From the IMG/VR virus record IMGVR_UViG_3300027467_000206, positions 1-23,508 of that record: DNA of 23,508 nucleotides; one strand, written 5' to 3'. Below are positions 4,274 through 22,673 of the stretch, in pieces. This stretch comes from a virus. A program made the position numbers and the translations under genes. A model generated the notes under the pieces. That model did no database searches and had not been told where the DNA came from. It was given only the letters and a program-made list of their open reading frames with translations. The stretch's first letter is position 1. Each line of letters begins with the position of its first letter.

Positions 4274-4294
4274 TGATTCCCGAAAGGAAATCAA

Positions 4295-4660: not shown

Positions 4661-4669
4661 GTAACAGAA

Positions 4670-4990: not shown

Positions 4991-5000
4991 TCAGTAGGTC

Positions 5001-5038: not shown

Positions 5039-5055
5039 AATAGGGCTATTGGTTG

Positions 5056-5271: not shown

Positions 5272-5960
5272 TTACCCTGAATACCCTTCGGGATCAGGTT
5301 CGTGCCATGGCCGATCTGGACGAAACGGATCTTTCCGATTCCGTCATTGACCAGTTTGCCAAGGAAGGTTTTCAGCGCATTTACGCCTTGGAGCGTCGCT
5401 GGCCATATTTGCAAACAACGTTCACAACCTCAACGTCCGCAGGCATCAGATCGTATCTGATTGAAAACATCGGTGATATTCGAGAAATCATTTCAATTGT
5501 TGACACAAGTTCATCTGGCAATAGGTTTACTTTGATTGACCATAACAATGCGGAAGAGGTTTGGCTCGGGAATACCGACACACCAAGCCGACCGTATTTC
5601 TTTTCAATTTGGGAAAAGCAGATCCACCTGTGGCCGAAACCAGATACAACCTATACTTTGTTGATTCGTGCATACCGGAACCCGTCATACGACTGGTTGA
5701 CCAGTCCGGATGACGATATTGATTTGGATGAATGGTTCCATGCCATTCTCCCGTATTTTGTTTTGGCACGTGTTTATCAGCGTCAGGAAGACGCAGAGTT
5801 GAGTGCGATGTACATGCGCTCCTTTGAAGAAGGAGTCGCATTTGCTAGACGTGACTTGATGAAAGCTTCAAGCGCACAACCTGTTGTTATGTCCGGTGGC
5901 AAGCGTTATCCAACTATGCGTCGCTGGTTGCAGACGCTTGGGGCGACTCTTGGACAATGA
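5268..5960 (+). CDS. Head-tail adaptor / tail tubular protein A-like
   Basis: This 230-residue protein starts with GTG overlapping the preceding TGA. The N-terminal helices (LRDQVRAMADLDETDLSDS, then FAKEGFQRIYALERRWPYLQ) and the later segment IHLWPKPDTTYTLLIRAYR match the arrangement of podovirus adaptor proteins, known as gp11 or tail tubular A in T7-like phages and gp4 in P22-like phages. These proteins form the ring between portal and tail nozzle. C-terminal helices (about 150-200) carry the usual repeated-helix character. The stop overlaps the next ATG (ATGA), giving coupling with the nozzle-like gene, and the pair order adaptor-nozzle is the standard one. The family call is by pattern and context. 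Confidence 0.72.
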   Translation: MITLNTLRDQVRAMADLDETDLSDSVIDQFAKEGFQRIYALERRWPYLQTTFTTSTSAGIRSYLIENIGDIREIISIVDTSSSGNRFTLIDHNNAEEVWLGNTDTPSRPYFFSIWEKQIHLWPKPDTTYTLLIRAYRNPSYDWLTSPDDDIDLDEWFHAILPYFVLARVYQRQEDAELSAMYMRSFEEGVAFARRDLMKASSAQPVVMSGGKRYPTMRRWLQTLGATLGQ

Positions 5961-7576
5961 GCGCAGTATCCGTAGAGCGTTACGATGATTTTACTGGAGG
6001 TCTGAACCTACGTTCAGATCAATTCCAGCTGACTCGGAACGAGTCGCCAGATATGCTTAATGTGGAAATTGATCCACGTGGCGGTTTGTTTACCCGTGGT
6101 GCAATACGGGAGATAAATAGCACAGCTATTTCTCACACTGGTTCGTGGAACCCTGAACGGCTTTACAATTTTTCTGGAACTACGCCCACAATCATGTTGA
6201 CTGCTTCAAGCAAAGTGTATAAGTCGACTGGTGGGAACTTTACGACTCTTCAGTATTCAGCTGGAAATGATGTGACTTCTTTGTCGTCCCATGGTGCATG
6301 TATGGCTCAATGGAGTGACACGATGTACATGTGCATGGGAACTGCTGGCAACGGTGGATACAAGTGGAAGACGACTGATACGTATGCGACAGCGTTGACT
6401 GCCTCTGGCGTCAACCCGAACCCTTGGCAGGCATATAATACTCCTACTGGTGGGAAGATGCCAACGGCTGAGCATCTTCTTGTTCACGCCAACAAGATGT
6501 TTGCAGCTAACACGACAGAGGCTTCTGTGACCTATCCGAATCGTGTTCGTTGGTCGCATGAAAACCTGCCTGAAGATTGGATGCAGGACGACTACATTGA
6601 TTTTGAAGGTGGCGGAACCGGTGTTACCGGTATGGCTACCGTTGCTGGTCAACTTGTGGTGTTTAAGCCACGAGCCATTTATGTTGTGTATGGTTACGAT
6701 GGCACAGACTTTCAGGTTGTTGAATTAACATCAAAACTTGGTGTTGCAAGCCACCATCATATGGCTGTTGCTGAAACAGGAGTTTATTTTTACTCGCATC
6801 CACAGGGTTTGTTTTACTATAATGGAACAAACATTCTTGAGTTGTCCGACAACATCAAACCAATTTATCCGTTAGGGCATGTTAACAATTCTGAAACAGA
6901 CAAAATTTCTGTTTCGTTTATCAATCGTCGTGTATGGTTGGCGATGCCGTATTCGGTTACCACTAGCGTTACGGATGCGACTGTAAATTTTGTTTACGAC
7001 CCTTCGATCAACAATGGTGCTTGGGTCAAGCATTCAACAGCAGATGGCAAAGCTGTAGTAGGTGGGGTTGACTGGACAGATACAACTGGCGTACCTAGGG
7101 CTTTGGCCATTCATGCAACACAACCAAGAGTTATGGAAGTTGACCTTTACAGCGAGGTGAATGACCGAATTGGTGGAACTAATCTCGGTTTCTCAACCTA
7201 TTATCGCACAGGTTGGATTGATGGTCGCACATATTCTCAAAAGAAGATGTGGCGTAGACCCGACATTGTTGTTAAGCAGATTAATTCTACCGCACAGCTT
7301 AACGTAAAGGTGTACCATAATTTTGAGGAAGCGGTCGGCAACGAACGCAAAACGTTTGTTATCAATATTCCTGCTTCGGCATCCGGAATGATTTGGGGTG
7401 CTGGCGCATGGGGTTACGGTTCCTGGGGTGTAATGGCCCAGGGGGCACAGGTTATGCGTGGATCCAACCTTGGGTTGGCTCGCTCGGTCCAATTGTTGTT
7501 CACTGGCCCATCAGGAAAGTATTGGGGCATTGACAGCATTTCTTACAAATTCAATGCACGAAAGGTCAGTGGCTAA
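5957..7576 (+). CDS. Tail nozzle / tail tubular protein B-like
   Basis: This encodes a 539-residue, beta-rich protein beginning VERYDDFTGGLNLRSDQFQL, then SPDMLNVEIDPRGGLFTRGA. This opening is typical of podovirus nozzle or stabilisation proteins that follow the adaptor gene (the T7 gp12 or P22 gp10 position). Repeating blocks with Trp, Tyr and Gly (LYNFSGTTPTIML, GKMPTAEHLLVHANKMFAAN, VVFKPRAIYVVYGYDG) suggest a beta-propeller-like body. It would form the distal hexameric part of the short tail and may anchor fibres. It is coupled at both ends: ATGA with the adaptor, and TAATG with the next gene. T-ending codons are more frequent here than in the capsid gene. Confidence 0.72.
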   Translation: MSAVSVERYDDFTGGLNLRSDQFQLTRNESPDMLNVEIDPRGGLFTRGAIREINSTAISHTGSWNPERLYNFSGTTPTIMLTASSKVYKSTGGNFTTLQYSAGNDVTSLSSHGACMAQWSDTMYMCMGTAGNGGYKWKTTDTYATALTASGVNPNPWQAYNTPTGGKMPTAEHLLVHANKMFAANTTEASVTYPNRVRWSHENLPEDWMQDDYIDFEGGGTGVTGMATVAGQLVVFKPRAIYVVYGYDGTDFQVVELTSKLGVASHHHMAVAETGVYFYSHPQGLFYYNGTNILELSDNIKPIYPLGHVNNSETDKISVSFINRRVWLAMPYSVTTSVTDATVNFVYDPSINNGAWVKHSTADGKAVVGGVDWTDTTGVPRALAIHATQPRVMEVDLYSEVNDRIGGTNLGFSTYYRTGWIDGRTYSQKKMWRRPDIVVKQINSTAQLNVKVYHNFEEAVGNERKTFVINIPASASGMIWGAGAWGYGSWGVMAQGAQVMRGSNLGLARSVQLLFTGPSGKYWGIDSISYKFNARKVSG

Positions 7577-7833
7577 TGGCTGTTACAATCCCACACACAT
7601 TTACCAATGGAAACATTGCTGAGGCTGCTGAGGTCAATGCTAACTTCACAGCGGTCAAACTGTTCGTTGACAATCTTCAGGATGGCACCAATTTTACGGC
7701 TGGTGCCATTACCACAAACTCAATTGCCGATGGGGCAATTACGCAGTTGAAGATTGACCCGACAGTCATTTCATCTTTGGGTGCTAGTGGCGATGACTCT
7801 GGAATTGTATTGGGTGCACAGATTTTCTCATGA
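7576..7833 (+). CDS. Short tail-appendage / fibre N-terminus-like protein
   Basis: This 85-residue protein starts with an ATG that shares a base with the preceding TAA. The text FTNGNIAEAAEVNANFTAV resembles the start of many phage tail-fibre and appendage proteins, followed by repetitive beta-type text (TAGAITTNSIADGAITQLKI). A normal fibre would continue for hundreds of residues into a receptor-binding tip; here the ORF ends after 85. It could be a small fibre anchor, a trimeric adaptor for a fibre encoded elsewhere, or a shortened relic. There is no sign of a frameshift continuation, because the next frame opens directly into an unrelated coiled-coil protein. Confidence 0.6.
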   Translation: MAVTIPHTFTNGNIAEAAEVNANFTAVKLFVDNLQDGTNFTAGAITTNSIADGAITQLKIDPTVISSLGASGDDSGIVLGAQIFS

Positions 7834-8018
7834 TGTACGAACTCCAAATCCCCGCCCTGACGACTTTGCAGTCATCTGATGCTCGAGCGATTAGGGCCAT
7901 TGTTGCCTCGCTTGTGTCCGAAATTTCCAGACTTAACAAAGAAGTTGAAGATCTTAAGGAACAGATGAAGCGACGAAATGACAATCGAGAAAGGCCAGTT
8001 TATGGCATACGACGCTAG
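7830..8018 (+). CDS. Small coiled-coil protein
   Basis: This encodes 62 residues starting at ATG 7830, which overlaps the preceding TGA (ATGA); a second ATG follows at 7833. About residues 24-50 (ASLVSEISRLNKEVEDLKEQ) form a clear amphipathic coiled coil, and the C-terminus is basic. There is no membrane segment or zinc site. It overlaps the next gene by 17 bases. Small coiled-coil proteins in this position could be tail or internal-virion assembly factors, but I cannot name a family. Confidence 0.62.
   Translation: MMYELQIPALTTLQSSDARAIRAIVASLVSEISRLNKEVEDLKEQMKRRNDNRERPVYGIRR
7990..7994 (+). promoter_or_regulatory. Ribosome binding site favouring the 8002 start
   Basis: AAAGG (within GAGAAAGG, 7987-7994) lies seven bases before the ATG at 8002. 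The in-frame ATG at 7978 has no comparable site, so the shorter product beginning MAYDASVFEAR is preferred. Confidence 0.55.
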
Positions 8019-8433
8019 CGTATTTGAAGCACGTCGGCGTGCTGCAATGCAGAACATTGCCGCACCGTCGGCAATGAATGTATATGACCAGTTTATTTCA
8101 CAGCAACGTGGTCAACGCAATCTTGCAGATTTGCAACGCCAATACAACGAGGGTGCCCCTCGGGTTGTAGCAGGTTACGGTCGTCGTGGACTATTGGCAC
8201 CATCGGTTAAAAGTGGTGCTTTCCGTAAGGCAATGGCAGAATATGCACGCAGGCGTGTTGAAGATACTTCTGCTTTGCAGCGTGAACTGGATATGTCTGC
8301 TGCTCAAGCAGAGTTGCAGAATCGTCAGTTGCGGTCACAGTACGCTCAGGATTTGCAGGATCTTGAAACCGACAAAGCACGTCAGATTCGAGAAGACGCT
8401 TTGGCGCTTCTTCGTTTGAGAGCAGGAGCATAA
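8002..8433 (+). CDS. Helical putative internal virion protein
   Basis: This encodes 143 residues from ATG 8002 (151 if the ATG at 7978 is used). It is almost entirely helical and rich in Ala, Gln, Arg and Glu. A central glycine-containing segment, VVAGYGRRGLLAPSVKSG, is followed by a long heptad-like helix (about 75-135). It has no signal peptide and no catalytic motif. It is the first of four consecutive helical proteins between the tail genes and the peptidase, a place where podoviruses keep proteins that are ejected with the DNA (T7 gp14-16, P22 gp7/gp20/gp16). That role is inference from position and composition. Confidence 0.62.
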   Translation: MAYDASVFEARRRAAMQNIAAPSAMNVYDQFISQQRGQRNLADLQRQYNEGAPRVVAGYGRRGLLAPSVKSGAFRKAMAEYARRRVEDTSALQRELDMSAAQAELQNRQLRSQYAQDLQDLETDKARQIREDALALLRLRAGA

Positions 8434-8434
8434 C

Positions 8435-9634
8435 ATGGCAGAAAACCAGAGAACCCCAGGTCGTAGCGCATATAGAGCAAATCGTATCAAAGTGTTTCCG
8501 ACTGCCCAACCGTCAACGGATAATACAATTCCCGTTGCCTCATATGTTGATCCGACGGCTACACAAATTGCCGACACACGCCGTGGCACGGCTGACCGTG
8601 CTTCCGCAATCCTGAACCGTGGTCTTTACGGAACCAATCTTGACGTTTTAAATCCTGCACAACGTGCAACATATCTTCAGGGTCAAGGAATTGACACGAG
8701 ACCTGCACAAAATGTGAACATTGATATTGCTGGAGCACTTGGTCTTGGCGGTGGAGGTTCAGGTGGCGGCGGACTGTCAGCATCTGACAAGCTTGCATTG
8801 CAGAAGTGGCAGTATGAGAAAGCGCAGGACGCTGAAGAAAAAGCACGTCAGCAACGCTCGTACGATCTCATGATTCAGCAACTTCAAAATGGTTCGTACC
8901 GTGGAGATGTGGACGCAGCTTTGGCAAGGATTGGCAAGATGGATGCCGCATCAAAGACTGGTATTGAATCGATTTATGGCGATGTTTTAAAGAACATTGG
9001 TGCCGGATATGACACGGCATCCGGTTTGACAACCGGTGCATACAATGCGCTCACAGATTACCTGAACCAAAACCCGAACAACGCATTTGCTGGTTTGACA
9101 CAGCAGGTTACTGCTCCACAGGATCAGATGGCCCAGATGTTGGGTGCGTATGGTGTGTCGGCACCTGAAGTGGCGGCACAAATTCAGGCAGAACAGTTTG
9201 CTGGGCAGCAGGGTGCTGGGGCATTCAATACGCTTGCGGACTTTCTTGCTAGTGCGTCTCGTCAGGCTGATTTGTCTCGTTTGGCTGAAGCCAAGGCTGC
9301 TGGTGCGTTTGCTGGCACCCAGTTGGGTCAGGAACGTGCGGCTTACCAGTCGCAGGCTGCTAGGTCACGTCAGGATGCTTTGACCGCTTTGGCTGAGCGT
9401 ACTGCTCAAGCCCAGTTTGATCAGGAACAGGCTGCCGAAGCAAGGCGACAGGCCATTGTGGATGCTCTTATTGCGGCCGGCATTGCCCCTCCTAATGGTT
9501 CTGGGGCTGGTGGCGCTTTGACGAAACTTGAGCAGACGATTAGGGCTGGTGGTGGAAATACCACGGAGGCGCAGTTCCAGCAGGGGGTTGATGAGTTGGC
9601 GTCAATCCTTGGTGGTATTGGGTTCCAAGGGTAA
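8435..9634 (+). CDS. Ala/Gln-rich putative internal virion (ejection) protein
   Basis: This 399-residue protein starts one base after the preceding stop, with AGGAG at 8424-8428. The first 100 residues are mixed and polar. A glycine linker (G105-G113 with one Ser) leads to a long helical body rich in Ala and Gln, including AAGAFAGTQLGQERAAYQSQ. Near the end is another Gly/Pro hinge (IAPPNGSGAGG). There are no cysteines and no obvious membrane segment. Such hinged, Ala/Gln-rich proteins are common among podovirus ejection proteins. The 3' half shifts to T- and G-ending codons (gct, cgt, ttg). Function is inferred from context only. Confidence 0.65.
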   Translation: MAENQRTPGRSAYRANRIKVFPTAQPSTDNTIPVASYVDPTATQIADTRRGTADRASAILNRGLYGTNLDVLNPAQRATYLQGQGIDTRPAQNVNIDIAGALGLGGGGSGGGGLSASDKLALQKWQYEKAQDAEEKARQQRSYDLMIQQLQNGSYRGDVDAALARIGKMDAASKTGIESIYGDVLKNIGAGYDTASGLTTGAYNALTDYLNQNPNNAFAGLTQQVTAPQDQMAQMLGAYGVSAPEVAAQIQAEQFAGQQGAGAFNTLADFLASASRQADLSRLAEAKAAGAFAGTQLGQERAAYQSQAARSRQDALTALAERTAQAQFDQEQAAEARRQAIVDALIAAGIAPPNGSGAGGALTKLEQTIRAGGGNTTEAQFQQGVDELASILGGIGFQG

Positions 9635-9651
9635 CGAATCAGGTATTTGGT

Positions 9652-10575
9652 ATGGATCCAAAGGTTTTAGCACAAATTGCCCAAATGTTTAAGGCAAACA
9701 AGCTTGGCGACCCCTCCAGCGCCGCCTTTGACCCAGTTCTCGCTTTGCTGACCGGAACCTATACACCCAAGCAACAGTTCACTGAGGAACAGCTTTTTGA
9801 GCGTCTTGCGCCCACGATGTTGTATGCGGCCGCTGAGGGCCCTAATTCGCCTAGGGCGATTGCGGCTAGCCGTATTAAGGCCGGTGAAGCACCTTGGTCG
9901 ATTGAAAACGACAAGGAACTTCGTGGAAAGATTTCTAGCAAAGAATGGTCAAGGTTTGTTTCCGATCTCGCAAAGGAATCGCAGGCTGTTCGTGCAAAAA
10001 TGCTTGATTTAAGTTTGGAACAAGATCCTTTCCAGAAACAGGGTCTTCGTGGGTTAAATGAGCAGTTCACTCCGCAGGATGCATACAAGTATGCGCCAAA
10101 GGAGTTTGCAAAGATTTTTGAGGGCATGGATGAAGCCAAAAAGGCCGAAGATGCCAAACTGAAGAATATTCGTTCAGAGTTTGGTCGTGATGTGATGATC
10201 CTCAATAGAGAGGAAATGCTCAAGAAGCTTACGGATATGGAGAAAAGTAATCCGGATGTTATTAAGCGTGCACGTGAATTCAGTCCAACTAATTGGAGAA
10301 AAGAAGTTGCAAAGTTTGCCAAGAATTCTGCCCAAAACAAGTTGAACGAAAATCCCCTCATGTCTCTTGTGGACGTAGGTCAGACTGCCGCACAGAAGTC
10401 TTATCTTGCCCAGAAGGAAGCCGTGGAGGCCCGTAGGGCTGGTACGGCATCAAACAGGATGGCTCAGGCAGCAAAACTGGCTGAGGGCATTACAGGGGCT
10501 CTTACATCGGCTGGACTTAGCCCAACGATGGAAGATATTTTACGGAACCTTGCAGTACGCAAAACAATGAAGTGA
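9652..10575 (+). CDS. Helical putative internal virion protein
   Basis: This encodes a 307-residue protein, mostly helical and lysine-rich, with a hydrophobic N-terminal patch (VLAQIAQMFKANKL) and polar repeats of Lys/Glu in the middle (EGMDEAKKAEDAKLKNIRSE). It has no recognised catalytic motif, cysteine pair or membrane segment. Its ribosome site is poor, and the gene follows the preceding stop by 17 bases, starting with a CGAA motif also seen at other junctions. It lies directly before the giant gene and probably works with it inside the virion. The name of a family cannot be given. Confidence 0.65.
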   Translation: MDPKVLAQIAQMFKANKLGDPSSAAFDPVLALLTGTYTPKQQFTEEQLFERLAPTMLYAAAEGPNSPRAIAASRIKAGEAPWSIENDKELRGKISSKEWSRFVSDLAKESQAVRAKMLDLSLEQDPFQKQGLRGLNEQFTPQDAYKYAPKEFAKIFEGMDEAKKAEDAKLKNIRSEFGRDVMILNREEMLKKLTDMEKSNPDVIKRAREFSPTNWRKEVAKFAKNSAQNKLNENPLMSLVDVGQTAAQKSYLAQKEAVEARRAGTASNRMAQAAKLAEGITGALTSAGLSPTMEDILRNLAVRKTMK

Positions 10576-10578
10576 CGA

Positions 10579-13500
10579 ATGGCTGATGCAAACAACGAAC
10601 AATTCATACTGGAGAATCTAAAAAAGATTGGTCAATCCCAAAAGGGAACCAAAGCCAGTATTCCTGGGACGACTGGTATTCGTCGTCCCCAAGGACAAAC
10701 CAGTGAACTGTTGAATGTCCTGAACACAGCCAAGAATGTGCCCGTGTCTGCGCCCACAAAGAAGGGCAAGGTTGTTTTGTCAACCGAAGTTAAGGATTTG
10801 GCCAAGGATGGTCCTGACGTTTTGGGCAAACTTTTAAAACCTCTTGAGGTTCTCAGCATTCCTCGTAATGCCATTATTTCAACTGTGAGAGAAGTGGCTG
10901 ATGTTCTTGATTCTGATCCCAATACCAAGGGTAGTTGGGGGGATTGGTTTAATCAGACGAAAGATTCAACCTACGGTTTTGGTAAAGCTTTCCCGATGAA
11001 GGGTTGGTTGGGTCGTATCGTTGGTTTTGCTGGAGACACATTACTTGATCCATTAACATATGCCACTTTGGGTGGAACCGTTGCTAAGGGTGCAACTTTT
11101 GTTGATGATGCAGGTAGGGTTCAAAAGACTCGATCCATTCTTGGTCGAACAGTTGTTGGTCGTGAAGGACGCCAGAAACTGGCAAGTTTTGCAAGAGCAC
11201 GTGTAGAGAAACTGGCTAGAGACGGTCACATTGCTGCTAGTGCAATGAGCAAGGACATGATCTCTGAAATGGTGCGAGATATCGCAGCTCAAGGCAAACG
11301 TGCTTTACCAAAGTTTGTTGCTGATGATATTGGCATTAGGGGACCTGGGGTTTATTATTTTGGTTCTAGGGTTAAGGTTCCAAAGAGCGATAAGTTGGGT
11401 TTCTTTTTGGAAAAAGGTATTACGAAGATGCGCCTGGGGGCGGTTAATTCGGATGCCATGAAACCATTGATTCGTGCAATAACACCTAGAGGTGTTGGAA
11501 GAATTGAGGAATTGGGTCCAAATTTTGTTCGTGATGCAAGAATTGCTTTGGCGTCTGGACGTTTGGATCCGATCGATGCCGATAATGCTTTGACCTATCT
11601 TGAGATTTTAGATAATAAGCGAATTAATGTTGCAGCATATTCAAGTTCAACATCCGATGCATTGGCTGACGAACTTGATGACGTTCTTAACACAACTCAA
11701 GATATGCGCTTGTACATGGATAATGTTGTGGATCCGAGCACTGTTCCGGGTGCAACAGCAGGTGATATTGACAAGGCTGTTCGTCTCAGGGCCGTGCTTG
11801 ATGATTTGCGCCTGAAGCTTGATGCAAGGGCGCAAGAAGTTGGAGCAAGCCCAATCGGTTATGTTAAGGGTTATGTTCCACGTATTGAAACCGAACAAGG
11901 AGCCCGATATAGGCAACTTGTTGGTGATGATGCATTTGACGAAATGGTTTACGGTCCACCAATTGATTCACGCAGACGTCAATCATTCCGAAGACGAACA
12001 TTGCAACCAGGAGATGAATGGTTCGGTCACACCCTGCAACCAGAACAAATGGATAACGCCACATTGAATACTTTGGCACGTAATCCAACGGAAGCTTGGA
12101 TTGGTAAGACCGGTCGTGAACCAATTACGTTTGACATTTTTGAAACCGACATGGCAAAAATCTTGAACGGATACATCCGTCAATACGGTGAACAGATGGC
12201 CACCTTTGACATGATTGAAGAGTTTACAACACGCATGCCGCACATGGTTGCATGGTTGGACAAAACATTTGAACTAGACCCAGACTATGTGCGCACAGCT
12301 TTGGTGTTGCGTCCCAAAGAAGCATTTGAAGACAGTGTTGAATCACTCAGGAACTGGTCACGTGTAACCAACGAAGCAGCGGAGCATTCAACATCCACAC
12401 TTGAGGCTCTTACCGGCACTCTCCGTGGACGCAAAGAAACCTTGCTTCGCCAAGAGGTATTGGACCAGGATCTTGTTGCGATTGTGGCCCACCTTGATGA
12501 GGCATTGAAGCAGGAACAGGCTGCTTCGCAGGCTGTTCAACAAACCTTTGCCGCATTTGATGACATGCTGGAAAATGTTGATGGTCTATCAAACAATACG
12601 CTTGTTATTGCTCAGCGTCAGAAGCTTGCTGATGAGTATGCTGGTTTGGCTAGCAGGGTTGCTGAGATTCAGAAGAAAATGTCAGCTGATCCGCTGCCTG
12701 GTCCTAAGGTATCAGATAAGTTTGGAAAAGAAATATCCACTCAATGGGTGGCTAATCCTAAAAAAGAAATTCTTGCACTTGTAAACGATTTTGCTGATCA
12801 CGCCAGGCGTATTGCTAGATTTGAAAGAGAGATTGATTCTCTTGGTGATGTGCAAGATATTCTGCCTGCGTTTATTAACGCCGGCGAAGTAAATGCTGGA
12901 AGCCTCTACGATTCTATGAGTCGTTTTGTAAAACTCAAAGGCATGCCGAAAGGCAAGCCATTGGTTGGGAATTCAAACTGGAGCCCGACCACAGCACAGG
13001 CTGTCGCCAACCTTGGCAACGATGCAGATGTTATGAACAGTTTGTTGTCATTCAGCGATGAAACATTTGATGCCATTACCGAAAAACAGGTGAAAAACAT
13101 TGCCCGATACATTTGGGCTCGCATAGCAAGCAATGACTCCAGTTTTGTTAATGATTTCAATAACGGAATCTGGAAGCGTGGCGGAAAACCAACACTTGCC
13201 GATGTGTGGCAAACAGCATTCAAAAATATAGGAAGCAAGGGAAATCCCAAAGTAGTTGTTCAGGATTTGGTCGACATGCTTCACGCTCAAATAGCACTTA
13301 CTGAATATTTGCAATACAAAGCCGTATTTGATGAATATGGCCTGCAAATTGGCGACGATGTAATTGATGAAATTCTGCGACGTAAAGCAGAACCCATTTT
13401 GGCAAAAGCCGTTAGAGATAACGATGTTGAATTGCTGTCACGTTTGACGGATTCACAAAACATTTATGGGCGCACCGACCGAATCGATCATCCGTTTAGC

Positions 13501-16500
13501 CGATACAAAATGGTTGAGCGTGCACGCAAAACACGAGACGACCTTATTGACGAGATTGATAAGACAAACAAACTTAGCCGTGAAAGAAATGCACCAGCAG
13601 ATGTTAGGGCTGCAAGAACAAAAGAACTTGATGGTCTTAAGCCCAAGCAGCGTGCTGCGTTCAAAAACTTTATTGCTAGGCAAAAAGCTTCAGCAAGAGC
13701 CTATAGGGCTGATCTTGCTCGAGCGAAAGAAGACTTGAACTTTGTTAATGGTGCTTTGGCCGAAGTGGACTCTAAGTACGGTGCAGCCAAGCAAAAGCTT
13801 GTGAAAGAGTTTGGTGACTCGGCGGCAAAAGGTACTTTGGGTCAACGCTTTAAGGCAACTGTCCAGCGCATCTTTGATAATCCAAAACTTCTCGAAGAAT
13901 ATGTAGAAAAGAAAATTATTGAATTGTTTCCTGAAAGTGTTTATGGTCAAGACGTTGGTCGTCTTGTCGCAGAATCATGGAAGTCCCACCATGCCGAAGG
14001 GCTGAGAATTGTTTTGACAAGAGACTCAGCTGATGACGGCGGATATGTCAAACAGATCATTGCGGAAATGTTGAACGGTTTGGATGAGATTATTGATAAT
14101 GCGGCTTTGGCTGCAAAAACGGATCTCAATCTGCAGGCGGATGAAATTGGCAAAGAATTTTCCAGACTGACAGACAAAATCGCATTGCTTGAAGACAACA
14201 TCAATAACATGATGCCAAGTACCTGGTTGAACGGCGAAATGGGGCAACAGGTATACGAAGATGTGCTTATTAGGTCGGAGGGCGTACAGCGTGCAGTACA
14301 ACCTGGGGCCGGTGACATTCCAGAGAATGCAAAAAATGTTGAATTCTTGAAGCAGGTATACAGGGATCTTGTTGATAGCGATGAATACCCGATTGCAAAG
14401 GCACAGCAGAAAGCGGCGAACATTGCGTACATTGTTTCTGAGCTGAATGGGACTGCGGACATTCTTCCTGGCATCAGATTCTCGTCTGAAGAATGGGACG
14501 CAATTATGTCCGGGGCGGAGGTCGCTACGGCGACCAGCCGCAAGCTGGATGCAATTGTCAAGCATGCACGAAACATATTCCAGCAAACAGATCCAGATGA
14601 GTTTGCCCGATTGGGTGGAGAAATCTCAGACGAATACGCTTTGAAGCGATTCGTTCAAAAGACCATGACCGAGCGGCCAGATATTGTTGCGCCCACAAAT
14701 GTTGCGCAGACACGCAAGGCCGCAATTCAAAAGGCGTTTGAGCAGACTGACGGATATCAGCATCTTAAGAAGATTGAAGAATTCCGTGCACGTATTGTTG
14801 CTGATGACATTCGTCGCAAGTCGGTAAACCCACAAACCAAAGCCGATGCTTTGGCTGCTGCCAATGATGAGATTGATAATGCTGCGAATCAGATTGCTCA
14901 GGAATTTGATGAGTGGACCCCTGAATCATCCAAGAAAATTGATGAGCTTATTAGAGAACTCAATATTTGGAAACGTGAAGTAGAGGGCAAACTTGTCACA
15001 AAAGAACAGCAAATGTCGAAGGGGCAAACTGGTGCTTTTCTTGGTTATACGGAAGAAGGCGAAGATATTGCCGCAAATCTGCTTAAAGAAATTGATGAAA
15101 CAGGATCGTTGAAGTTTACAAAAGGTCCAGATCGAACACAAAACATTAATGCAGCAGCCCAGGAACAAAGTTTTGAGTTGTTGCGTCAACTGAATTATAA
15201 CAATGATTTGATTCAGCGTCGTATTAGGGCCGTTTTGGATACCCCACTTGAACGCAAGTCTGTTCAAAGACTTTTAGATGAAATTAGATTGCTTGATGAA
15301 ATCAAGAAATTTAAGATCGATATTGATGGTGTGCAGATTTCTCGTGCCTTGCGTGAGCGCAAAGCACAGCTTAACAGGCTTGTGCCGAAAGAAGAATACA
15401 TTCTTGACACCACTGGACTTAGTGACGAAAGCGCAAAGTTCCTTAAGGGATGGGAATCAAAAACCAAAAAGGTTGCACGATCAAAGACTTACAAGCAACC
15501 TAAAAATGACAACATGGAAAATGTTTTGGAGCGCACTATTAGGTCGCAAGACGAACCAAGGGGCGAGTTTGATCCAGATGGCGGTTACGGTCTTTCCGAC
15601 TACATTGAAAACGCAGAAGAAAGAGCAGTGCGAGAAGGCATCTACCGTAATCCAGATGGGTCAATATCCGTATGGAGACGAACTGGCTTGCAGGCCAAAC
15701 CAACCCCCGAAGCCGTAAAACAACGACTTTTGGAAACCGTGCCAACACCTATGACACCAGAACTCAGAACACCATCTGGCATCAACGAAGAAGGCCTGAG
15801 ACTGCTGGAAAACGACCTCAAAAGGGTCGCCAACACCTCTGATGTGGGCGCAAAACAGGCCGAGCTCGACAGAGCAAGGGCTGTTGTACGGAACTTGGAA
15901 GCACAATACGATCAGGCTGCAGCAGTAATCAATGCCGGCGACCCAGAAGCATTGACCAATGTGCAAGAAGGTTTAGACCTGCTTGAACAAACAGTTGAAG
16001 CATTGAAGAACAATATTGAAATCAACAATATCAACTCTGGCGACTTGGCAACTGTTAGCAAGCGAAGCGGAGATATCTACAACTCGCTCAAATTTGTTCA
16101 AGAAAGACTAAAGGAAGCACGCAAAGTTGCTGAATACCTTGGTGACAAGAAATCAATGGACCTTATCGACAAAATTATTTTGTCACAAGTTGAAGCAGAA
16201 CGACAGTTCTTTGAAACATTCGCACAGTTTGGGCAAGCAAAGTTTGACAACCAAATGCTTGGTGCTGCAGAAGCAATGATTTCATCTGGAGGGAAACTTC
16301 TTGAGGATGGAAGAATTGCGCTTCCATCAGGCGTAATCGTGGATGGTGTGCCACCAGAAATGATTGCTGATGGCATCAGGCAAACAATGACCACTTTTGC
16401 CGGCTGGAAAGAACTTGGAACATTCTATCCAGGGTTGCAGGGTTCACCAGAATTTATGCAACTTTGGGAAGCAGGATCACGAATGCAATCCCCAGAATGG

Positions 16501-17508
16501 GTACGCAAACTTGCTTACTATATTGGACCTTACACGAAAGCTTGGAAAGCTTTCGCAGTTCTTTCACCCGGATTCCATGTGCGCAACGCTATTGCAAACG
16601 CAGTTACGTACACATTGGCTGACGGAAATATGGACAACCTGATAACCATCACCCCAATTTATGCGGCATGGACGAAAGCCAAACGAGCAGGAACAAGCTG
16701 GGCAGAATTCTTGCGAAGTTCAGCAGTTCCACAAGAACTCGTACCGGCTTTGCAAACGGCACGCCTCGGCATGCTTGGATCGGGTGGAGGTATCTTCTCC
16801 GAAACCTTCAAAGAAGCAACCAGCGGAAAGTTTGGTGCACGCATTTATGACAACTGGCTGATCAGAAAGAACCAAGCAATCGGTCAGGCAGCAGACAACT
16901 ACATGCGATTTGCATTAGCGTTCGATACCGCCGTGAAAGGCGGCGACGTTGGTCTCGCACAAATTAGAGTAAAACGATTCTACTTCGACTACGAAGACCT
17001 TTCACAGTTTGATGAGGTCATGCGACAAATTGTACCGTTCTGGCTGTGGACAAGCCGAAACCTTACAATGCAAATTCAAAACATGTGGCTGAATCCACGA
17101 CCATACTTGATCTACGAATCTTTCAAACGGAACTTTGGTGATAACGAAACGCCACTTCCACCATTCGTAAAAGAATTGGGTGGCTTCAGATTGCCATTTG
17201 GCACAGGTATGTACCTGATGCCAGACATTGGATTCAACCGAATTGGCAAAGACCTAGAAGCTTTCTACAATCCAGTAGAGTTCCTGAACAAAGCCAATCC
17301 GTTGATTAAGATCCCGGTCGAACAAGCAATGGGAGCAAGCGCATTCACCGGAACAGAGTTTAAGACACCGCAAGACAGGCTTGCAGCGATCCTTAGGGCT
17401 GGCGTGCCGCCTGTAGGCCAGGGAGAAAGACTGTTCGGTAAAGAAGGCTTGTCACAACTCAACGCTTGGCTCGGTTACCTTGGATCACCAGTACGTAAAT
17501 ATAACTAG
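10579..17508 (+). CDS. Giant polyvalent / internal virion ejection protein (2309 aa)
   Basis: This is one uninterrupted ORF of 2309 residues. Residues 135-166 hold an amphipathic or hydrophobic stretch (GRIVGFAGDTLLDPLTYATL) of a kind seen near the start of large ejected phage proteins. Residues 427-436 carry GYVKGYVPRI, close to the YVPH-type motif of polyvalent proteins. About residues 600-1950 are long charged helices and coiled coils. The C-terminal 330 residues contain AWKAFAVLSPGFHVRN (1988-2003) and IVPFWLWTSRNL (about 2151-2162), which I recognise as resembling the large polyvalent protein-associated domain LPD38. Such proteins travel in the virion and enter the host with the DNA. No HExxH, lysozyme or ADP-ribosyltransferase site was found by eye. 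Codon preference shifts along the gene, to A/C-ending codons after about 15.7 kb. Confidence 0.75.
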   Translation: MADANNEQFILENLKKIGQSQKGTKASIPGTTGIRRPQGQTSELLNVLNTAKNVPVSAPTKKGKVVLSTEVKDLAKDGPDVLGKLLKPLEVLSIPRNAIISTVREVADVLDSDPNTKGSWGDWFNQTKDSTYGFGKAFPMKGWLGRIVGFAGDTLLDPLTYATLGGTVAKGATFVDDAGRVQKTRSILGRTVVGREGRQKLASFARARVEKLARDGHIAASAMSKDMISEMVRDIAAQGKRALPKFVADDIGIRGPGVYYFGSRVKVPKSDKLGFFLEKGITKMRLGAVNSDAMKPLIRAITPRGVGRIEELGPNFVRDARIALASGRLDPIDADNALTYLEILDNKRINVAAYSSSTSDALADELDDVLNTTQDMRLYMDNVVDPSTVPGATAGDIDKAVRLRAVLDDLRLKLDARAQEVGASPIGYVKGYVPRIETEQGARYRQLVGDDAFDEMVYGPPIDSRRRQSFRRRTLQPGDEWFGHTLQPEQMDNATLNTLARNPTEAWIGKTGREPITFDIFETDMAKILNGYIRQYGEQMATFDMIEEFTTRMPHMVAWLDKTFELDPDYVRTALVLRPKEAFEDSVESLRNWSRVTNEAAEHSTSTLEALTGTLRGRKETLLRQEVLDQDLVAIVAHLDEALKQEQAASQAVQQTFAAFDDMLENVDGLSNNTLVIAQRQKLADEYAGLASRVAEIQKKMSADPLPGPKVSDKFGKEISTQWVANPKKEILALVNDFADHARRIARFEREIDSLGDVQDILPAFINAGEVNAGSLYDSMSRFVKLKGMPKGKPLVGNSNWSPTTAQAVANLGNDADVMNSLLSFSDETFDAITEKQVKNIARYIWARIASNDSSFVNDFNNGIWKRGGKPTLADVWQTAFKNIGSKGNPKVVVQDLVDMLHAQIALTEYLQYKAVFDEYGLQIGDDVIDEILRRKAEPILAKAVRDNDVELLSRLTDSQNIYGRTDRIDHPFSRYKMVERARKTRDDLIDEIDKTNKLSRERNAPADVRAARTKELDGLKPKQRAAFKNFIARQKASARAYRADLARAKEDLNFVNGALAEVDSKYGAAKQKLVKEFGDSAAKGTLGQRFKATVQRIFDNPKLLEEYVEKKIIELFPESVYGQDVGRLVAESWKSHHAEGLRIVLTRDSADDGGYVKQIIAEMLNGLDEIIDNAALAAKTDLNLQADEIGKEFSRLTDKIALLEDNINNMMPSTWLNGEMGQQVYEDVLIRSEGVQRAVQPGAGDIPENAKNVEFLKQVYRDLVDSDEYPIAKAQQKAANIAYIVSELNGTADILPGIRFSSEEWDAIMSGAEVATATSRKLDAIVKHARNIFQQTDPDEFARLGGEISDEYALKRFVQKTMTERPDIVAPTNVAQTRKAAIQKAFEQTDGYQHLKKIEEFRARIVADDIRRKSVNPQTKADALAAANDEIDNAANQIAQEFDEWTPESSKKIDELIRELNIWKREVEGKLVTKEQQMSKGQTGAFLGYTEEGEDIAANLLKEIDETGSLKFTKGPDRTQNINAAAQEQSFELLRQLNYNNDLIQRRIRAVLDTPLERKSVQRLLDEIRLLDEIKKFKIDIDGVQISRALRERKAQLNRLVPKEEYILDTTGLSDESAKFLKGWESKTKKVARSKTYKQPKNDNMENVLERTIRSQDEPRGEFDPDGGYGLSDYIENAEERAVREGIYRNPDGSISVWRRTGLQAKPTPEAVKQRLLETVPTPMTPELRTPSGINEEGLRLLENDLKRVANTSDVGAKQAELDRARAVVRNLEAQYDQAAAVINAGDPEALTNVQEGLDLLEQTVEALKNNIEINNINSGDLATVSKRSGDIYNSLKFVQERLKEARKVAEYLGDKKSMDLIDKIILSQVEAERQFFETFAQFGQAKFDNQMLGAAEAMISSGGKLLEDGRIALPSGVIVDGVPPEMIADGIRQTMTTFAGWKELGTFYPGLQGSPEFMQLWEAGSRMQSPEWVRKLAYYIGPYTKAWKAFAVLSPGFHVRNAIANAVTYTLADGNMDNLITITPIYAAWTKAKRAGTSWAEFLRSSAVPQELVPALQTARLGMLGSGGGIFSETFKEATSGKFGARIYDNWLIRKNQAIGQAADNYMRFALAFDTAVKGGDVGLAQIRVKRFYFDYEDLSQFDEVMRQIVPFWLWTSRNLTMQIQNMWLNPRPYLIYESFKRNFGDNETPLPPFVKELGGFRLPFGTGMYLMPDIGFNRIGKDLEAFYNPVEFLNKANPLIKIPVEQAMGASAFTGTEFKTPQDRLAAILRAGVPPVGQGERLFGKEGLSQLNAWLGYLGSPVRKYN
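16535..16555 (+). repeat. Perfect inverted repeat inside the giant gene
   Basis: Arms 16535-16543 and 16547-16555 are perfect reverse complements (nine pairs) around a three-base spacer. The repeat lies in the codons for TKAWKAFA at the start of the LPD38-like region. It may be chance, or an RNA hairpin or protein site embedded in coding sequence. Confidence 0.6.
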
Positions 17509-18562: not shown

Positions 18563-18731
18563 TCTTCTTCCTTGCTTTCTGATTTCTAACATATACGTAC
18601 CCCGGGGGAAGACCGTTCGATGAAATGCCCTGACCCACATCCACACTGCCAAACGCAGCTGCAAGAACTTCAGCAACTTCTTCCACGCTGACCGAAACAT
18701 CAAAACCCACTGTGATCTGTCTCATCTTCAT
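18555..18731 (-). CDS. Tiny 58-residue protein, unknown function
   Basis: A short ORF fills the 138 bases between the sigma-like gene and the 90-residue gene. It starts at ATG 18731 (or the second ATG at 18725) and stops at 18557-18555. It reads MRQITVGFDVSVSVEEVAEV, then LAAAFGSVDVG, then LPPGYVYVRNQKARKKNV. The pattern is strand-helix-strand with a basic tail, which looks like a real small fold rather than random text. The competing frame through the same bases gives Trp/Arg-rich noise. It overlaps the gene before it by 32 bases and the gene after it by eight. No family is recognised. Confidence 0.6.
   Translation of the reverse strand: MKMRQITVGFDVSVSVEEVAEVLAAAFGSVDVGQGISSNGLPPGYVYVRNQKARKKNV
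18569..18572 (-). promoter_or_regulatory. Ribosome binding site setting the 18562 start
   Basis: AGGA, inside AAGGAAG, is six bases ahead of the ATG at 18562 on the minus strand. It picks this start over the longer open frame whose upstream part overlaps another gene. Confidence 0.6.
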
Positions 18732-19086
18732 CTAAATTCAATCTTTCACGAATAAACTCATTGGCTTCAAGAAGAACCCCAAGCCTAGCGTAAGCAGCAT
18801 TACGCAAACGCCAAGCATGCGGCTTGGAAACACCAAGACGCTTACCCAAAGCCTCCAAAGAAATCATCTCAGAATTAACCGCATCAATAATAAAACGATC
18901 CTGCTCAGACAACTGTTCAATACAGCTAGCAACAGCCTCCCGAAGAGGCTGGATTTCCTGCAAGGACTCTTCAGGCTCTTCAAGGATGCCAGCCATCATC
19001 AACGCCTCAATGGGCGTTTCTGGCCTCCTGTACCCACGGAACGACTCTGCGTGGGACGGAGTAATGCTGACGTCTCTATTCCTCAA
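18700..19086 (-). CDS. Sigma-factor region 4-like HTH protein
   Basis: This encodes up to 128 residues. Residues about 56-105 have the sigma-70 region 4 arrangement: CIEQLSEQDRFIIDAV, then ISLEALGKRLGVSKPHAWRL, then a helix with NAAYARLGVLL. The helix-turn-helix is about 76-103. Region 2, which binds the -10 element and core polymerase, is missing, so this is not a full sigma factor; it may bind DNA or RNA polymerase as a regulator. The N-terminus (TPSHAESFRGYRRPETPIEA) is conserved-looking but unassigned. The start is uncertain: the only in-frame canonical start near the beginning is TTG at 19086, which has no ribosome site, while GAGGAA lies just after it (19084-19079). Confidence 0.7.
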   Translation of the reverse strand: MRNRDVSITPSHAESFRGYRRPETPIEALMMAGILEEPEESLQEIQPLREAVASCIEQLSEQDRFIIDAVNSEMISLEALGKRLGVSKPHAWRLRNAAYARLGVLLEANEFIRERLNLDEDETDHSGF

Positions 19087-19501
19087 GTTTTACAATTTTG
19101 CACTTATCGATCGGTATCTCAAAGAAGGTTTCACCTTCCGTATAAATAGTGTTCTTCGTTACAACAGACTTGAAATCCTCACCATCAACAAGAAGAACAT
19201 GTGTTCGCTCATGGTTCAACATGGCGAAATAAACCATCTCGTGCGTCTTCAAAAACTTGAACTTACGAGAAGCAAAATGCACAGTCTTAAACGGGAAAAC
19301 TGGACCACGCCAATTATGCTTAACCTCAACCTCAATACCGGTATCAGGCATACCCCAATCAGTCAAAATATCAATACCAAACTGATCAGGATTCAACTCC
19401 GCTTTTGCCCCTTGTGAGCGCAACCACTCAATGATCTGATATTTAGCCGAATCATCGGCCTCGTAAAGATTGCGATCAAACGGCTTCGAAGAAGGCTTCA
19501 T
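19076..19501 (-). CDS. PD-(D/E)XK-type nuclease
   Basis: This encodes 141 residues from ATG 19501, which overlaps the previous TGA (ATGA); the frame is open farther upstream but that part overlaps a real gene. FGIDILTDWG (D44) followed by TGIEVEVKHNW (E59-x-K61) gives the D...ExK metal site of restriction-endonuclease-like nucleases, after an N-terminal helix (SAKYQIIEWLRSQG). Then come a basic RKFKFLK segment and the hydrophobic strand MVYFAMLN. The small single-domain size resembles Holliday-junction or VRR-type nucleases rather than a restriction enzyme with a recognition domain. A role in phage recombination or host DNA degradation is inference. It overlaps the next gene by 11 bases. Confidence 0.65.
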   Translation of the reverse strand: MKPSSKPFDRNLYEADDSAKYQIIEWLRSQGAKAELNPDQFGIDILTDWGMPDTGIEVEVKHNWRGPVFPFKTVHFASRKFKFLKTHEMVYFAMLNHERTHVLLVDGEDFKSVVTKNTIYTEGETFFEIPIDKCKIVKLEE

Positions 19502-19797
19502 GCTGTCATGTGCTCCATCTTCTCTGCAATTTGCGCATAGCACCACAAATACCCTGCGGCATCAATGACACTATCCACATGCAAAAGATTCTTGCGATAG
19601 TTATTTTGCAAACGAGCAAGTTTCACGGAAACCATGAACATTGCACCTTGGGCAGGAGTTAACTCCACGCCCGAAAAAGCACGAAAAATATCAACCACCC
19701 GAGAATAGTCATCAAACGGATGATTGTATTCTTCACGACGCTGCCCGTGGGTCAGCTCGTGAGCCTTAAGCAAAACCTCATCAATTTGTTTAGACAT
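19498..19797 (-). CDS. DUF6378-like phage protein
   Basis: This encodes 99 residues from ATG 19797, which shares one base with the preceding TAA and has GAGGA at 19805-19801. The text KAHELTHGQRREEYNHPFDD, then ELTPAQGAMFMVSVKLARL, then HVDSVIDAAGYLWCY follows the pattern of the phage domain DUF6378: G-x-R, Y-x-HP, a helix with KxxR and a D-x3-D-x2-GY end. The all-helical layout with acidic clusters resembles MazG-like pyrophosphatases, but the family function is not established and I do not assert one. It is coupled to its neighbours on both sides (TAATG and ATGA). Confidence 0.72.
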   Translation of the reverse strand: MSKQIDEVLLKAHELTHGQRREEYNHPFDDYSRVVDIFRAFSGVELTPAQGAMFMVSVKLARLQNNYRKNLLHVDSVIDAAGYLWCYAQIAEKMEHMTA

Positions 19798-19970
19798 TAT
19801 TCCTCGTCGCTGAGAGCCATATACTCTGCGCCACTCATTTTCAGAATACGGCCATCTGGCTCGATAGCAACCCAGGTTGGTGCATCCGGATCGCAAGTGC
19901 ATCCGGACAACTTTTTGGGGTCATGAGTAACCAAGAAATTACAACGTAAACAAACAAGAGCATGAATCAT
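19797..19970 (-). CDS. 57-residue zinc-ribbon-like mini protein
   Basis: This starts at ATG 19970, one base after the RusA stop; the frame extends upstream but would run into the RusA gene. CLRC (C7, C10) and CTC (C24, C26) form a likely zinc site, and the second half (WVAIEPDGRILKMSGAEYMA) is a small beta unit ending in acidic residues. The general plan, two cysteine pairs followed by a short C-terminal beta segment, is common in small phage proteins of unknown function. No role can be assigned. Confidence 0.65.
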   Translation of the reverse strand: MIHALVCLRCNFLVTHDPKKLSGCTCDPDAPTWVAIEPDGRILKMSGAEYMALSDEE

Positions 19971-19971
19971 A

Positions 19972-20334
19972 TTAAGCTTTCTCTGCGAACAGAACAACAA
20001 TCTGCTTATCATCAGAATACGCCACACCATTCAACGCATCCAAAACAGACTTAACGTAATTATCAATATCACCACGTAACCGCTTAACCGGCTGCTCAAC
20101 TTCAGGATTCGGCTGCACACGCTCAATCTCCAACTCAATCTGATCATGCACAAAACGCAACCGAACAGCCAAATCACCTTCTTCAAACAACGGACCTTTA
20201 TACATCTCAGCAATAGCAGCTTCATGCAAAGCCGTCACTTTGGGTGTGTACGCAAAACCACGCTTTGATATTCTCGGGCGCTGCTTTGCCCGAGGACGAA
20301 TCTTGAAAATTTGGTTGTACTTAAACTTTTTCAC
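19972..20334 (-). CDS. rusA: RusA-family Holliday junction resolvase
   Basis: This 120-residue protein starts with GTG at 20334, overlapping the primase TGA (GTGA). It has the RusA pattern: KQRPRISKRGFAYTPK at the N-terminus, then GDIDNYVKSVLDALNG (D89, D91, K95, D99) followed by YSDDKQI. The aspartates bind the metal and the lysine is part of the active site in this family. RusA dimers cut four-way junctions and so clear branched DNA before packaging or during recombination. The length equals that of E. coli RusA. It lies directly after the primase and helicase genes, which fits a replication-recombination operon. Confidence 0.88.
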   Translation of the reverse strand: MKKFKYNQIFKIRPRAKQRPRISKRGFAYTPKVTALHEAAIAEMYKGPLFEEGDLAVRLRFVHDQIELEIERVQPNPEVEQPVKRLRGDIDNYVKSVLDALNGVAYSDDKQIVVLFAEKA

Positions 20335-21242
20335 GGACGAAACCCTTCCGACATAGGAACATCAGAACCATAACACGTCTCAATAATCTTAGTCAACTGT
20401 TCAACAGCATCCTCACGACCATGAAACTTACCCCACCTACGATCTGCGCCCACAAGCAAATTATAGGCATGATTGATCGGCGTGCCGTGCTCACGCATCA
20501 AGTGGACTAGACGCACAAGCGTGTTCGAGCGGTCAGAACCCGGTAACGGGCCATGCCACCAAATGTTGGCAATATACGGATTGATGTGCTTGAAAGATTC
20601 CTGAAGGTCAGGGGGCAAACCCTGAGGAACTTCAACCTTACGACGCTGAACCTTGGACATTTCAGCCAAGGGAAACAGATCAATATTGCTTGCACGATGC
20701 GCATACGCATGATCAAGAAACTCTTCTAAAGGAAGAGGATTATCATTAGCGTCTAACATAAACCTGTTCTCCGGAATACCATTACAGCCACCCGGATAAG
20801 GCAAACGAACATAGTTACCCAAACCCGAACAAATCTCCTGCTTGGGATTAACCTCTTTAGCAGGAAGATTGATTACTTGGTGGGCAGCTAGGAACGCACG
20901 ACGCATAATCCAAGCCGGCACCCAATCATCAGCGAAAACCCAAACATGATAACCACGTCGAGTTTTCTCAACATAAGAAACAACACCCTTCAAAAAGAAA
21001 GCTGTCTGAAGATTACGTGCCGCATCAAGATCATCAACATCAATATCCGAACAACCCCACTTGACAGTGGAGTCGTCAAGCAACGGATAAACCCCGAAAT
21101 AGAAATCGCCGTTCAAATGTGAGGCGAACATATCTGAAGTCACCGAAGCTTTGACAGACCCACCATCCCAAGTGCCGTACGCATCTGTACGACCGTCAAA
21201 AAGCTCAGAAAATAAATCAACCGAACTAGAAAGATTGCTCAT
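20331..21242 (-). CDS. Archaeo-eukaryotic-type (AEP) primase
   Basis: This encodes 303 residues from ATG 21242, with AGGG about eight bases ahead; the frame is open farther up but only into the helicase gene. The motifs are SDIDVDD (D66, D68, first metal-binding motif), KTRRGYHVWVF (H99, second motif) and GNYVRLPYP (142-150, nucleotide-site strand), as in AEP and TOTE-type primases. The C-terminal part (234-290: PGSDRSNTLVRLVHLMREHG) resembles PriCT helical domains. Its role would be to lay primers, and possibly polymerise, at the phage fork. It overlaps the helicase gene by 17 bases, so the two are probably co-translated. No helicase domain is fused to it. Confidence 0.78.
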   Translation of the reverse strand: MSNLSSSVDLFSELFDGRTDAYGTWDGGSVKASVTSDMFASHLNGDFYFGVYPLLDDSTVKWGCSDIDVDDLDAARNLQTAFFLKGVVSYVEKTRRGYHVWVFADDWVPAWIMRRAFLAAHQVINLPAKEVNPKQEICSGLGNYVRLPYPGGCNGIPENRFMLDANDNPLPLEEFLDHAYAHRASNIDLFPLAEMSKVQRRKVEVPQGLPPDLQESFKHINPYIANIWWHGPLPGSDRSNTLVRLVHLMREHGTPINHAYNLLVGADRRWGKFHGREDAVEQLTKIIETCYGSDVPMSEGFRP

Positions 21243-22254
21243 AAAAATTACCCTGCTGATATTGCGTCGGCAAAGCACCACTAAGATCAGTCAACCGACC
21301 CGTAGCGGTATCCAACTCGAAATCAATATCATCAACAAGTTGACCAGCTGGACGCTTATTCTTCAACAAAGAAACCGTCACAGTAAACTCATGAATCCTG
21401 GCTTCGCTACGCAAATAATCCAAACGATCCTGAGCACGCTCAGAATGCGAACGATCAAGTTTCTCAATCAACTCATTGATCTCTGCAGCAATCTGATACT
21501 TCTTGCGACGAACACCGATAATACTGGTTGCCTGCTGTTCACCACCGTACGAACCCGAAGACATGGTCAACTTCGCACCATCAGCACCAGCAGTACGAGA
21601 CGTCTGATGCAACACAAGCATCGGAATATCGTGACGCCGACCAAAACCCTTCAAGAAAGTAGCCTTATCCGGAACAGTCTCACCAGCCTCAACCAAATCC
21701 AAATAGTCAACAACAACTAGTTCAGGCACCCGACCCCAAACATCACAAACCTCGTTATAGGCACGCTCCATATCAGAAGCAGCCAAAGGCTGATCAAACA
21801 CAGCAAGATTCGGGAAATCCTCTTCAGCTGTACGACGCAACAACTTAATCGCATCAGCATCATCAGCAGCCACCCGAGCCTCAAGCTCACGAGCATCAAT
21901 ACGATGCTGAATACAAGTCAACTTAGTCAACACAAGCTGACGAGGCTCATCAGGAATGAACATCGCAATATGCTTATCACGATTATGACGCAACGCATGC
22001 ATCAACAATAAAGTCTTGCCACCATGAGCGAACCCGAGCATCATCGCAATTTCACCAGGCGCAATACCACGCAACTCCGCATCAATTCGAGGAATACCCA
22101 AATGGATACGTTCCTGCGGAGACTGAGCCCAACGAACAAACGAATCCGCAGCATCAGCCAACGGAGAATACATCCGATACTCAGGTTCAGGTGGGGAAGC
22201 GGACTTCCCCACCAAATCCCAGCCGGCAGCAATATCTTCCGGCGACAAACGCAT
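21226..22254 (-). CDS. DnaB/RecA-like replicative helicase
   Basis: This 342-residue protein starts with ATG 22254, overlapping the upstream TAA by one base. Walker A is GFAHGGKT (74-81), a catalytic Glu lies in FIPDEP (E103), Walker B is LVVVDYLDL (D183), and LVLHQTSR (about 213-220) holds the RecA-fold sensor glutamine. Together these give the DnaB/KaiC-type hexameric helicase core. The N-terminal primase-interaction domain of full-size DnaB is missing; only about 50 residues precede the core. It would unwind DNA with the adjacent primase. The C-terminal 40 residues are polar. A charged insertion, YQIAAEINELIEKLDRSH, lies between the sensor and the last strand. Confidence 0.85.
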   Translation of the reverse strand: MRLSPEDIAAGWDLVGKSASPPEPEYRMYSPLADAADSFVRWAQSPQERIHLGIPRIDAELRGIAPGEIAMMLGFAHGGKTLLLMHALRHNRDKHIAMFIPDEPRQLVLTKLTCIQHRIDARELEARVAADDADAIKLLRRTAEEDFPNLAVFDQPLAASDMERAYNEVCDVWGRVPELVVVDYLDLVEAGETVPDKATFLKGFGRRHDIPMLVLHQTSRTAGADGAKLTMSSGSYGGEQQATSIIGVRRKKYQIAAEINELIEKLDRSHSERAQDRLDYLRSEARIHEFTVTVSLLKNKRPAGQLVDDIDFELDTATGRLTDLSGALPTQYQQGNFYEQSF

Positions 22255-22673
22255 TACTTAGACCGAGGCGGCCAGTAAGCCTTCTCACCCTCAACAGCCT
22301 TGAAGTGAGGACGCTTAGGATTCTTATCAAGCGAATCACGGTTGTCATAAATCTTCGTGACACCATCACGCTTACAAGCCTTAATCAACCAATCCGGAAG
22401 ATCACCATGCTGCTTACCAACAACACGAATATCGCCACCCGAAGAAGAAACTTCAGTAGCACCAAACGCTTCACGCATCATATTCACAGCCTGAGCATTT
22501 TGATCTTGCGAACCCTGCGGAGAACCATAAATGGTGTCCAACATGATCTCAGAAACCGACCCGAAAATGTTTGCAAACTCACCAATGCGAGCATCAACAG
22601 TCAACGACTTATCAGTCATATCGGCTGCGATCTTCGCACAAACCTGCATGATAATTGCTCTGTCCTTATCCAT
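22254..22673 (-). CDS. Unknown replication-operon protein (139 aa)
   Basis: It starts at ATG 22673, overlapping the preceding TAA by one base, and has a very strong GAGGAGG site at 22684-22678. Residues 1-72 are helical, followed by a polar linker (VSSSGGDIRVVGKQHGD) and a conserved-looking end: LPDWLIKACKRDGVTKIYDN, then NPKRPHFKAV, then AYWPP. This ending resembles a phage module that often contains a zinc ribbon, but here only C12 and C100 remain and no CxxC pair exists. Placement between the Fe-S nuclease and the helicase suggests a single-strand-binding or loading accessory. That is inference; I cannot name the family. Confidence 0.65.
   Translation of the reverse strand: MDKDRAIIMQVCAKIAADMTDKSLTVDARIGEFANIFGSVSEIMLDTIYGSPQGSQDQNAQAVNMMREAFGATEVSSSGGDIRVVGKQHGDLPDWLIKACKRDGVTKIYDNRDSLDKNPKRPHFKAVEGEKAYWPPRSK

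Follow-up and report, generated by a model that had tools for sequence, protein, structure and literature searches.

A giant cysteine-free protein with a remotely polyvalent-like C terminus in a putative ejection cassette of a short-tailed phage

We analysed a 23,508-bp IMG/VR virus record, hereafter called the window, in which one giant open reading frame (ORF) runs uninterrupted on the plus strand from 10579 to 17508 and encodes 2309 amino acids. A single ORF of about 7 kb and 2309 residues had been reported in a preliminary description of this DNA, and this was borne out, as the frame is open throughout and is kept at full length in relatives from viral contigs at 77-32% identity. Its ATG lies 3 nt downstream of the stop codon of the preceding ORF. 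Compared with one such relative (L002), the substitutions were mainly silent, with a dN/dS of 0.14 overall and of 0.13, 0.15 and 0.066 in the N-terminal part, the middle and the C-terminal part, respectively. The giant ORF is a genuine gene under purifying selection and the closing gene of a podovirus virion module.

Pfam and PHROG searches gave the gene order as an SU10-like portal and adaptor, a scaffold, a major head protein, three small ORFs, the giant ORF and an M15-like peptidase ORF, and by this gene content the neighbourhood is the virion module of a short-tailed phage. The three small ORFs, all on the plus strand, encode 151 residues (7978..8433), 399 residues with a glycine-rich linker (8435..9634; a putative ejection protein) and 307 residues (9652..10575), the last of which matched PHROG 598, 'DNA ejection', with an E value of 5e-4. 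Three ORFs before the giant gene and a wall peptidase after it had been described earlier; the three ORFs stand, whereas the peptidase-like ORF on the 3' side scored 17.5 bits against the M15-type Pfam family, below the cut-off of 25 bits. Further downstream, the minus strand carries replication and accessory genes at 18700-22254 and 22673-23464, including a weak sigma-70 region-4-like ORF, DUF6378, RusA, an AEP-TOTE primase, a DnaB-like helicase and a PD-(D/E)XK nuclease.

We gathered the family of the giant protein by iterated searches with C-terminal profiles, which yielded 79 and then 63 loci (the two sets overlap) on contigs no longer than about 46 kb. Homologues that were uninterrupted and had both ends within the contig were about 1.1-3.3 thousand residues long. 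Two signatures were nearly invariant in the family: W-x-x-R-x-x-GF-x-GD-x-x-x-DP in the N-terminal part and SPGFHVRN / FDY / PFW in the C-terminal part. No relatives were found in a search of bacterial genome contigs. Direct homologues include UniProt A0A6J5RQM5 from an uncultured Caudovirales phage, which matches the giant protein in both its N-terminal and C-terminal regions, and proteins of the Manatee Spring podoviruses MW202795.1 and MW202803.1, which match at both ends and occupy the identical gene slot. The latter two differ from the window protein in their length of 1.1-1.3 thousand residues, with a far shorter middle, and are annotated only as hypothetical or as 'chromosome segregation'. 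Four of 19 homologues of the window family matched PHROG 36598, a family without a function name, with a best E value of 2e-6. MW202795.1 (relative L011) also carries two WhiB-like genes, which hints at an actinobacterial host for this phage only.

An AlphaFold2 model, computed from an alignment of the window protein and viral-contig sequences, divides the chain into several parts, all given here with plus-strand coordinates. Residues 1-87 (10579..10839) are of low confidence or disordered. They precede a conserved, ordered N-terminal domain at residues 88-660 (10840..12558), which carries the W-x-x-R-x-x-GF-x-GD-x-x-x-DP-x-TY motif. The variable middle, residues 661-1761 (12559..15861), is predicted to consist of helices and disorder and matches the segment that relatives have exchanged; an ordered C-terminal region follows. 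The preliminary description had taken about 1300 middle residues to be coiled coil. The model instead shows helices with breaks up to about residue 1470, one confident compact all-helical block at about 1254-1442 (14338..14904; pLDDT 85-95) that has no known name, and low-confidence stretches at about 1470-1528 and 1632-1736, the second of which (15472..15786) is probably a disordered linker.

The N-terminal domain appears to be specific to the family. Residues 88-660 had no known relative beyond the giant-protein family and its direct homologues, and a Foldseek search of the modelled N-terminal half against the PDB gave no match at E <= 0.001; PDB matches to motor proteins and others were rejected as helical noise. 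The same half searched against viral models retrieved A0A6J5RQM5, which was also retrieved by the C-terminal half. A kinship of this domain with polyvalent proteins was considered on the basis of a YFPH/YVPL match (P 0.094) and dropped, because deeper alignment gave P values of only 0.14-0.5.

It had also been proposed that the middle might hide anti-host domains. For the window protein we found no support for this idea: searches of Pfam, PHROG, NCBIfam and PDB sequences returned no enzyme or other useful match, and the N-terminal half gave no PDB fold. Pfam also gave weak matches to eukaryotic coiled-coil families and to an ExoU middle domain (E 0.035), which we ascribe to chance in a helical sequence. 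Elsewhere in the family, however, relative L156 carries a GNAT acetyltransferase domain in mid-protein (26.1 bits against a cut-off of 20.7, E 1.1e-5), located at L156:5078-5266 within a giant ORF at 1823-8302. The flanks of this domain are 55% and 62% identical to those of its nearest relative, L162, which has unrelated sequence at the same site; cargo exchange therefore occurs in the family. The pairs L165/L173 and L050/L075 likewise have central segments that cannot be aligned between conserved flanks. A recognizable enzyme was present in just one of the 60 scanned homologues, the L156 protein. These comparisons indicate that the middle is exchangeable across the family, seldom with a recognizable enzyme, and the L156 module makes anti-host cargo plausible for the family.

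The C terminus shows a more distant kinship. Two motifs that the preliminary description had quoted from near the end of the protein were both found, AWKAFAVLSPGFHVRN at residues 1988-2003 and IVPFWLWTSRNL at residues 2151-2162, and had been considered close to LPD38, a domain of polyvalent proteins described by Iyer et al. 2017 (PMC5512222). The Pfam profile for LPD38, PF18857, had no match up to E = 1 in the window protein and none in the 60 scanned homologues; as a positive control, the C terminus of Burkholderia phage JC1 gp69 matched it with an E value of 4e-34. When 62 LPD38-type polyvalent C termini were compared by hhalign with 103 C termini of the giant-protein family, the two profiles aligned over 387 columns with a probability of 96.9 and a P value of 1.9e-10, compared with 0.2 for the reversed profile and 0.027 for the best of 40 column shuffles. 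We then dissected this signal. The helical module upstream of the PF18857 boundary (residues 1980-2155, 16516..17043; SPGFHVRN ... FDY ... PFW) alone gave a P value of 7.6e-9 (controls >= 0.027), and both motifs of the preliminary description map to this unnamed module. The tail that corresponds to PF18857 (residues 2156-2309, 17044..17505) is collinear with it in the full alignment and alone gave a P value of 0.0023, against 0.34 when reversed. The link emerges only with deep alignments, as a shallow profile of eight C-terminal sequences compared with one LPD38 protein gave a P value of 0.043. Foldseek comparison of the AlphaFold2 C-terminal half with viral models returned 'large polyvalent protein associated domain' proteins (E 8.5e-26), one of them named LPD38, whereas neither the window protein nor its C-terminal profile had a sequence match among PDB chains. 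Together, the profile and model comparisons support remote homology of the C terminus to LPD38-type polyvalent proteins, chiefly through the module upstream of Pfam LPD38. They are no more than suggestive of homology between residues 2156-2309 and LPD38 proper, and they do not support direct membership in PF18857. The earlier 'close to LPD38' thus holds at the profile-profile level, as a remote relationship that lies mostly in the upstream module, and not for PF18857 itself.

A further property of the locus is its lack of cysteine. There is no cysteine among the 2309 residues of the giant protein or among the 857 residues of the three preceding ORFs, so that four consecutive ORFs, from 7978 to 17508, form a cysteine-free cassette that opens with the 151-residue ORF. 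At the rate of the window's own structural genes, the chance of such a cassette is 2.8e-5. The boundary is also sharp in related contigs, in which comparison ORFs were called mechanically: the giant ORFs had 5 cysteines in 257,102 residues (0.02 per 1000), counts that are not independent draws because the homologues are related, whereas successive upstream ORFs had 0.12, 0.34, 1.43 and then, at the fourth, 7.94 cysteines per 1000, and downstream minus-strand ORFs had 14.0 per 1000. A similar depletion was found in well-studied phages, with 2 cysteines in 10,213 residues of the known or annotated ejected proteins of SU10, T7, P22 and N4 and 136 in 20,055 residues of other sampled proteins of these phages. 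No cysteine occurs in the 9,820 residues that make up the LPD38 proteins of JC1, Vibrio phage K250 and Synechococcus phage MinM2, nor in the ORFs sampled just upstream of them. In MinM2 (L152), for example, the 2803-residue LPD38-type protein, annotated as RelA/SpoT (7887-16298), comes straight after two cysteine-free ORFs. Not all delivered phage proteins lack cysteine: it occurs in T4 Alt and in part of P1 DarB, which are delivered by contractile phages, and in 32 of the 62 LPD38 C-terminal parts, and low cysteine could partly reflect other constraints. Near-absence of cysteine is a feature that we found to be shared by the ejection proteins of SU10, T7, P22 and N4, although it does not formally define podovirus ejection proteins. 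The giant protein has this feature, which provides independent support for an ejection reading.

N4-type virion RNA polymerases are already reported to lack cysteine, and an explanation has been offered (PMC3915230, PMC3715699, PMC5795418); for the N4 enzyme, the lack was proposed to permit passage (PMC3715699, PMC3915230). Like the giant protein, the N4 polymerase is giant, cysteine-free and encoded by the closing gene of the virion module; the giant protein differs in that Pfam, PHROG and NCBIfam searches found no RNA polymerase domain in it. Among the open-access papers that we found, none reported and explained a lack of cysteine for other ejection proteins. The cysteine-free cassette extends the feature noted for the N4 polymerase to other ejection proteins.

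Other known systems resemble the locus in different respects. The ejection proteins of SU10 (gp20-24), T7 (gp14-16) and P22 (gp7, 20 and 16) share both the genome slot and the near-absence of cysteine with the giant protein, which exceeds all of them in size and has no detected sequence relation to them. Those of T7 and P22 are helical, as is predicted for the giant protein. The window's portal and adaptor are SU10-like, and SU10 gp20-24 occupy a relative slot that matches that of the cysteine-free cassette; these proteins have been shown experimentally to leave the head (PMC9509320). The polyvalent proteins of JC1 (gp69), K250 and MinM2 are similar in carrying a C-terminal helical module (NP/SPxFxxRN ... 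VDF/FDY ... F/PFW) followed by an LPD38-like tail, and in lying, free of cysteine, at the end of the virion module. In purified JC1 virions, gp69 was represented by 51 unique peptides (PMC9144972). The giant protein differs from LPD38 polyvalent proteins in that PF18857 was not detected, in having its own family-specific N-terminal domain and in having no methylase/helicase, transglycosylase or RelA/SpoT domains. Of two features by which polyvalent proteins are recognized, location of the gene among the late virion genes holds for the giant ORF, and the presence of several effector domains per chain does not, as Pfam, PHROG and NCBIfam searches found none in the window protein.

On balance, we consider it probable (about 0.78) that the product of the giant ORF is an internal virion (ejection) protein in a short-tailed phage and the largest of the four encoded by the cysteine-free cassette at 7978-17508. 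The podovirus ejection slot assigned in the preliminary description agrees with the gene position, the PHROG 598 match of the preceding ORF and the complete absence of cysteine. We infer that the giant protein would be packed in the phage head and would exit through the portal, adaptor and nozzle, ahead of or with the first DNA, to help form a path through the host envelope. Lacking cysteine, the chain could pass a narrow channel and an oxidizing compartment without forming disulfides. The C-terminal region of about 330 residues that is shared with LPD38-type proteins may be a loading and ejection (or membrane-path) module, because it invariably stands at the C terminus and is conserved more than any other part. 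Residues 88-660 would be a structural part specific to the family, and the main role of the helical and disordered middle in the window protein would be that of a spacer or conduit. In the family the middle is a swap site for modules, at least once an acetyltransferase, that would be co-delivered.

The strongest competing explanation is that the entire chain, like T7 gp15/gp16, is a purely mechanical part of the ejectosome, a channel or sheath through the envelope with no cargo role. This would account for the gene position, the predicted helices, the small cysteine-free ORFs before the giant gene and the peptidase-like ORF after it, but the threefold range of lengths among relatives (1.1 to 3.3 thousand residues) and the wholesale replacement of their middles would be odd for a fixed conduit, and a GNAT domain is inserted in L156; we regard it as possible, with the odds against it. 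It is unlikely that the window protein is a true polyvalent effector carrier whose middle holds one or more unrecognized anti-host or anti-defence enzymes that enter along with the DNA. The kinship of its C terminus to polyvalent proteins, the GNAT domain between the conserved flanks of L156 and the compact helical block at 1254-1442, which has no assigned role, would fit such a carrier, but no enzyme family was found in the window protein and only one in 60 homologues, and the predicted middle is nearly all helix and disorder, with no alpha/beta enzyme fold by secondary structure. A tail or tape-measure-like structural protein retained in the particle is very improbable, since a large helical protein encoded late in the virion module and a weak structural hit on a tape measure protein (E 8e-4, probability 0.57) are outweighed by the short-tail gene set with its SU10-like portal and adaptor, by best structural matches to polyvalent proteins and by a lack of cysteine that is common to the ejected, not the retained, proteins of SU10, T7, P22 and N4.

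With the giant protein read as an ejected internal virion protein, a broader proposal can be put forward tentatively, at somewhat less than even odds. In short-tailed phages, the absence of cysteine may mark, from sequence alone, the whole set of host-bound proteins, including effector enzymes purged of cysteine. The variable middle of the giant family may then be a slot for interchangeable cargo, flanked by two fixed parts, the N-terminal domain and a C-terminal delivery module of the polyvalent type. Cysteine-free candidates for such purged effectors are JC1 gp69, a 4515-residue protein with methylase/helicase regions, and the GNAT slice of L156. The original frame, a polyvalent-like giant protein occupying an ejection slot, is upheld in a weakened form; of more use is the finding of a cysteine-free ejection cassette. 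With these findings, a family of giant proteins that had no name, present on well over fifty metagenomic podovirus contigs, acquires a function class. They also point to the conserved but unnamed module that precedes Pfam LPD38 as possibly the real signal for delivery of polyvalent proteins, and offer the cysteine-free cassette as an inexpensive and testable way to predict the phage proteins that enter the cell, for which proteomics is usually needed.
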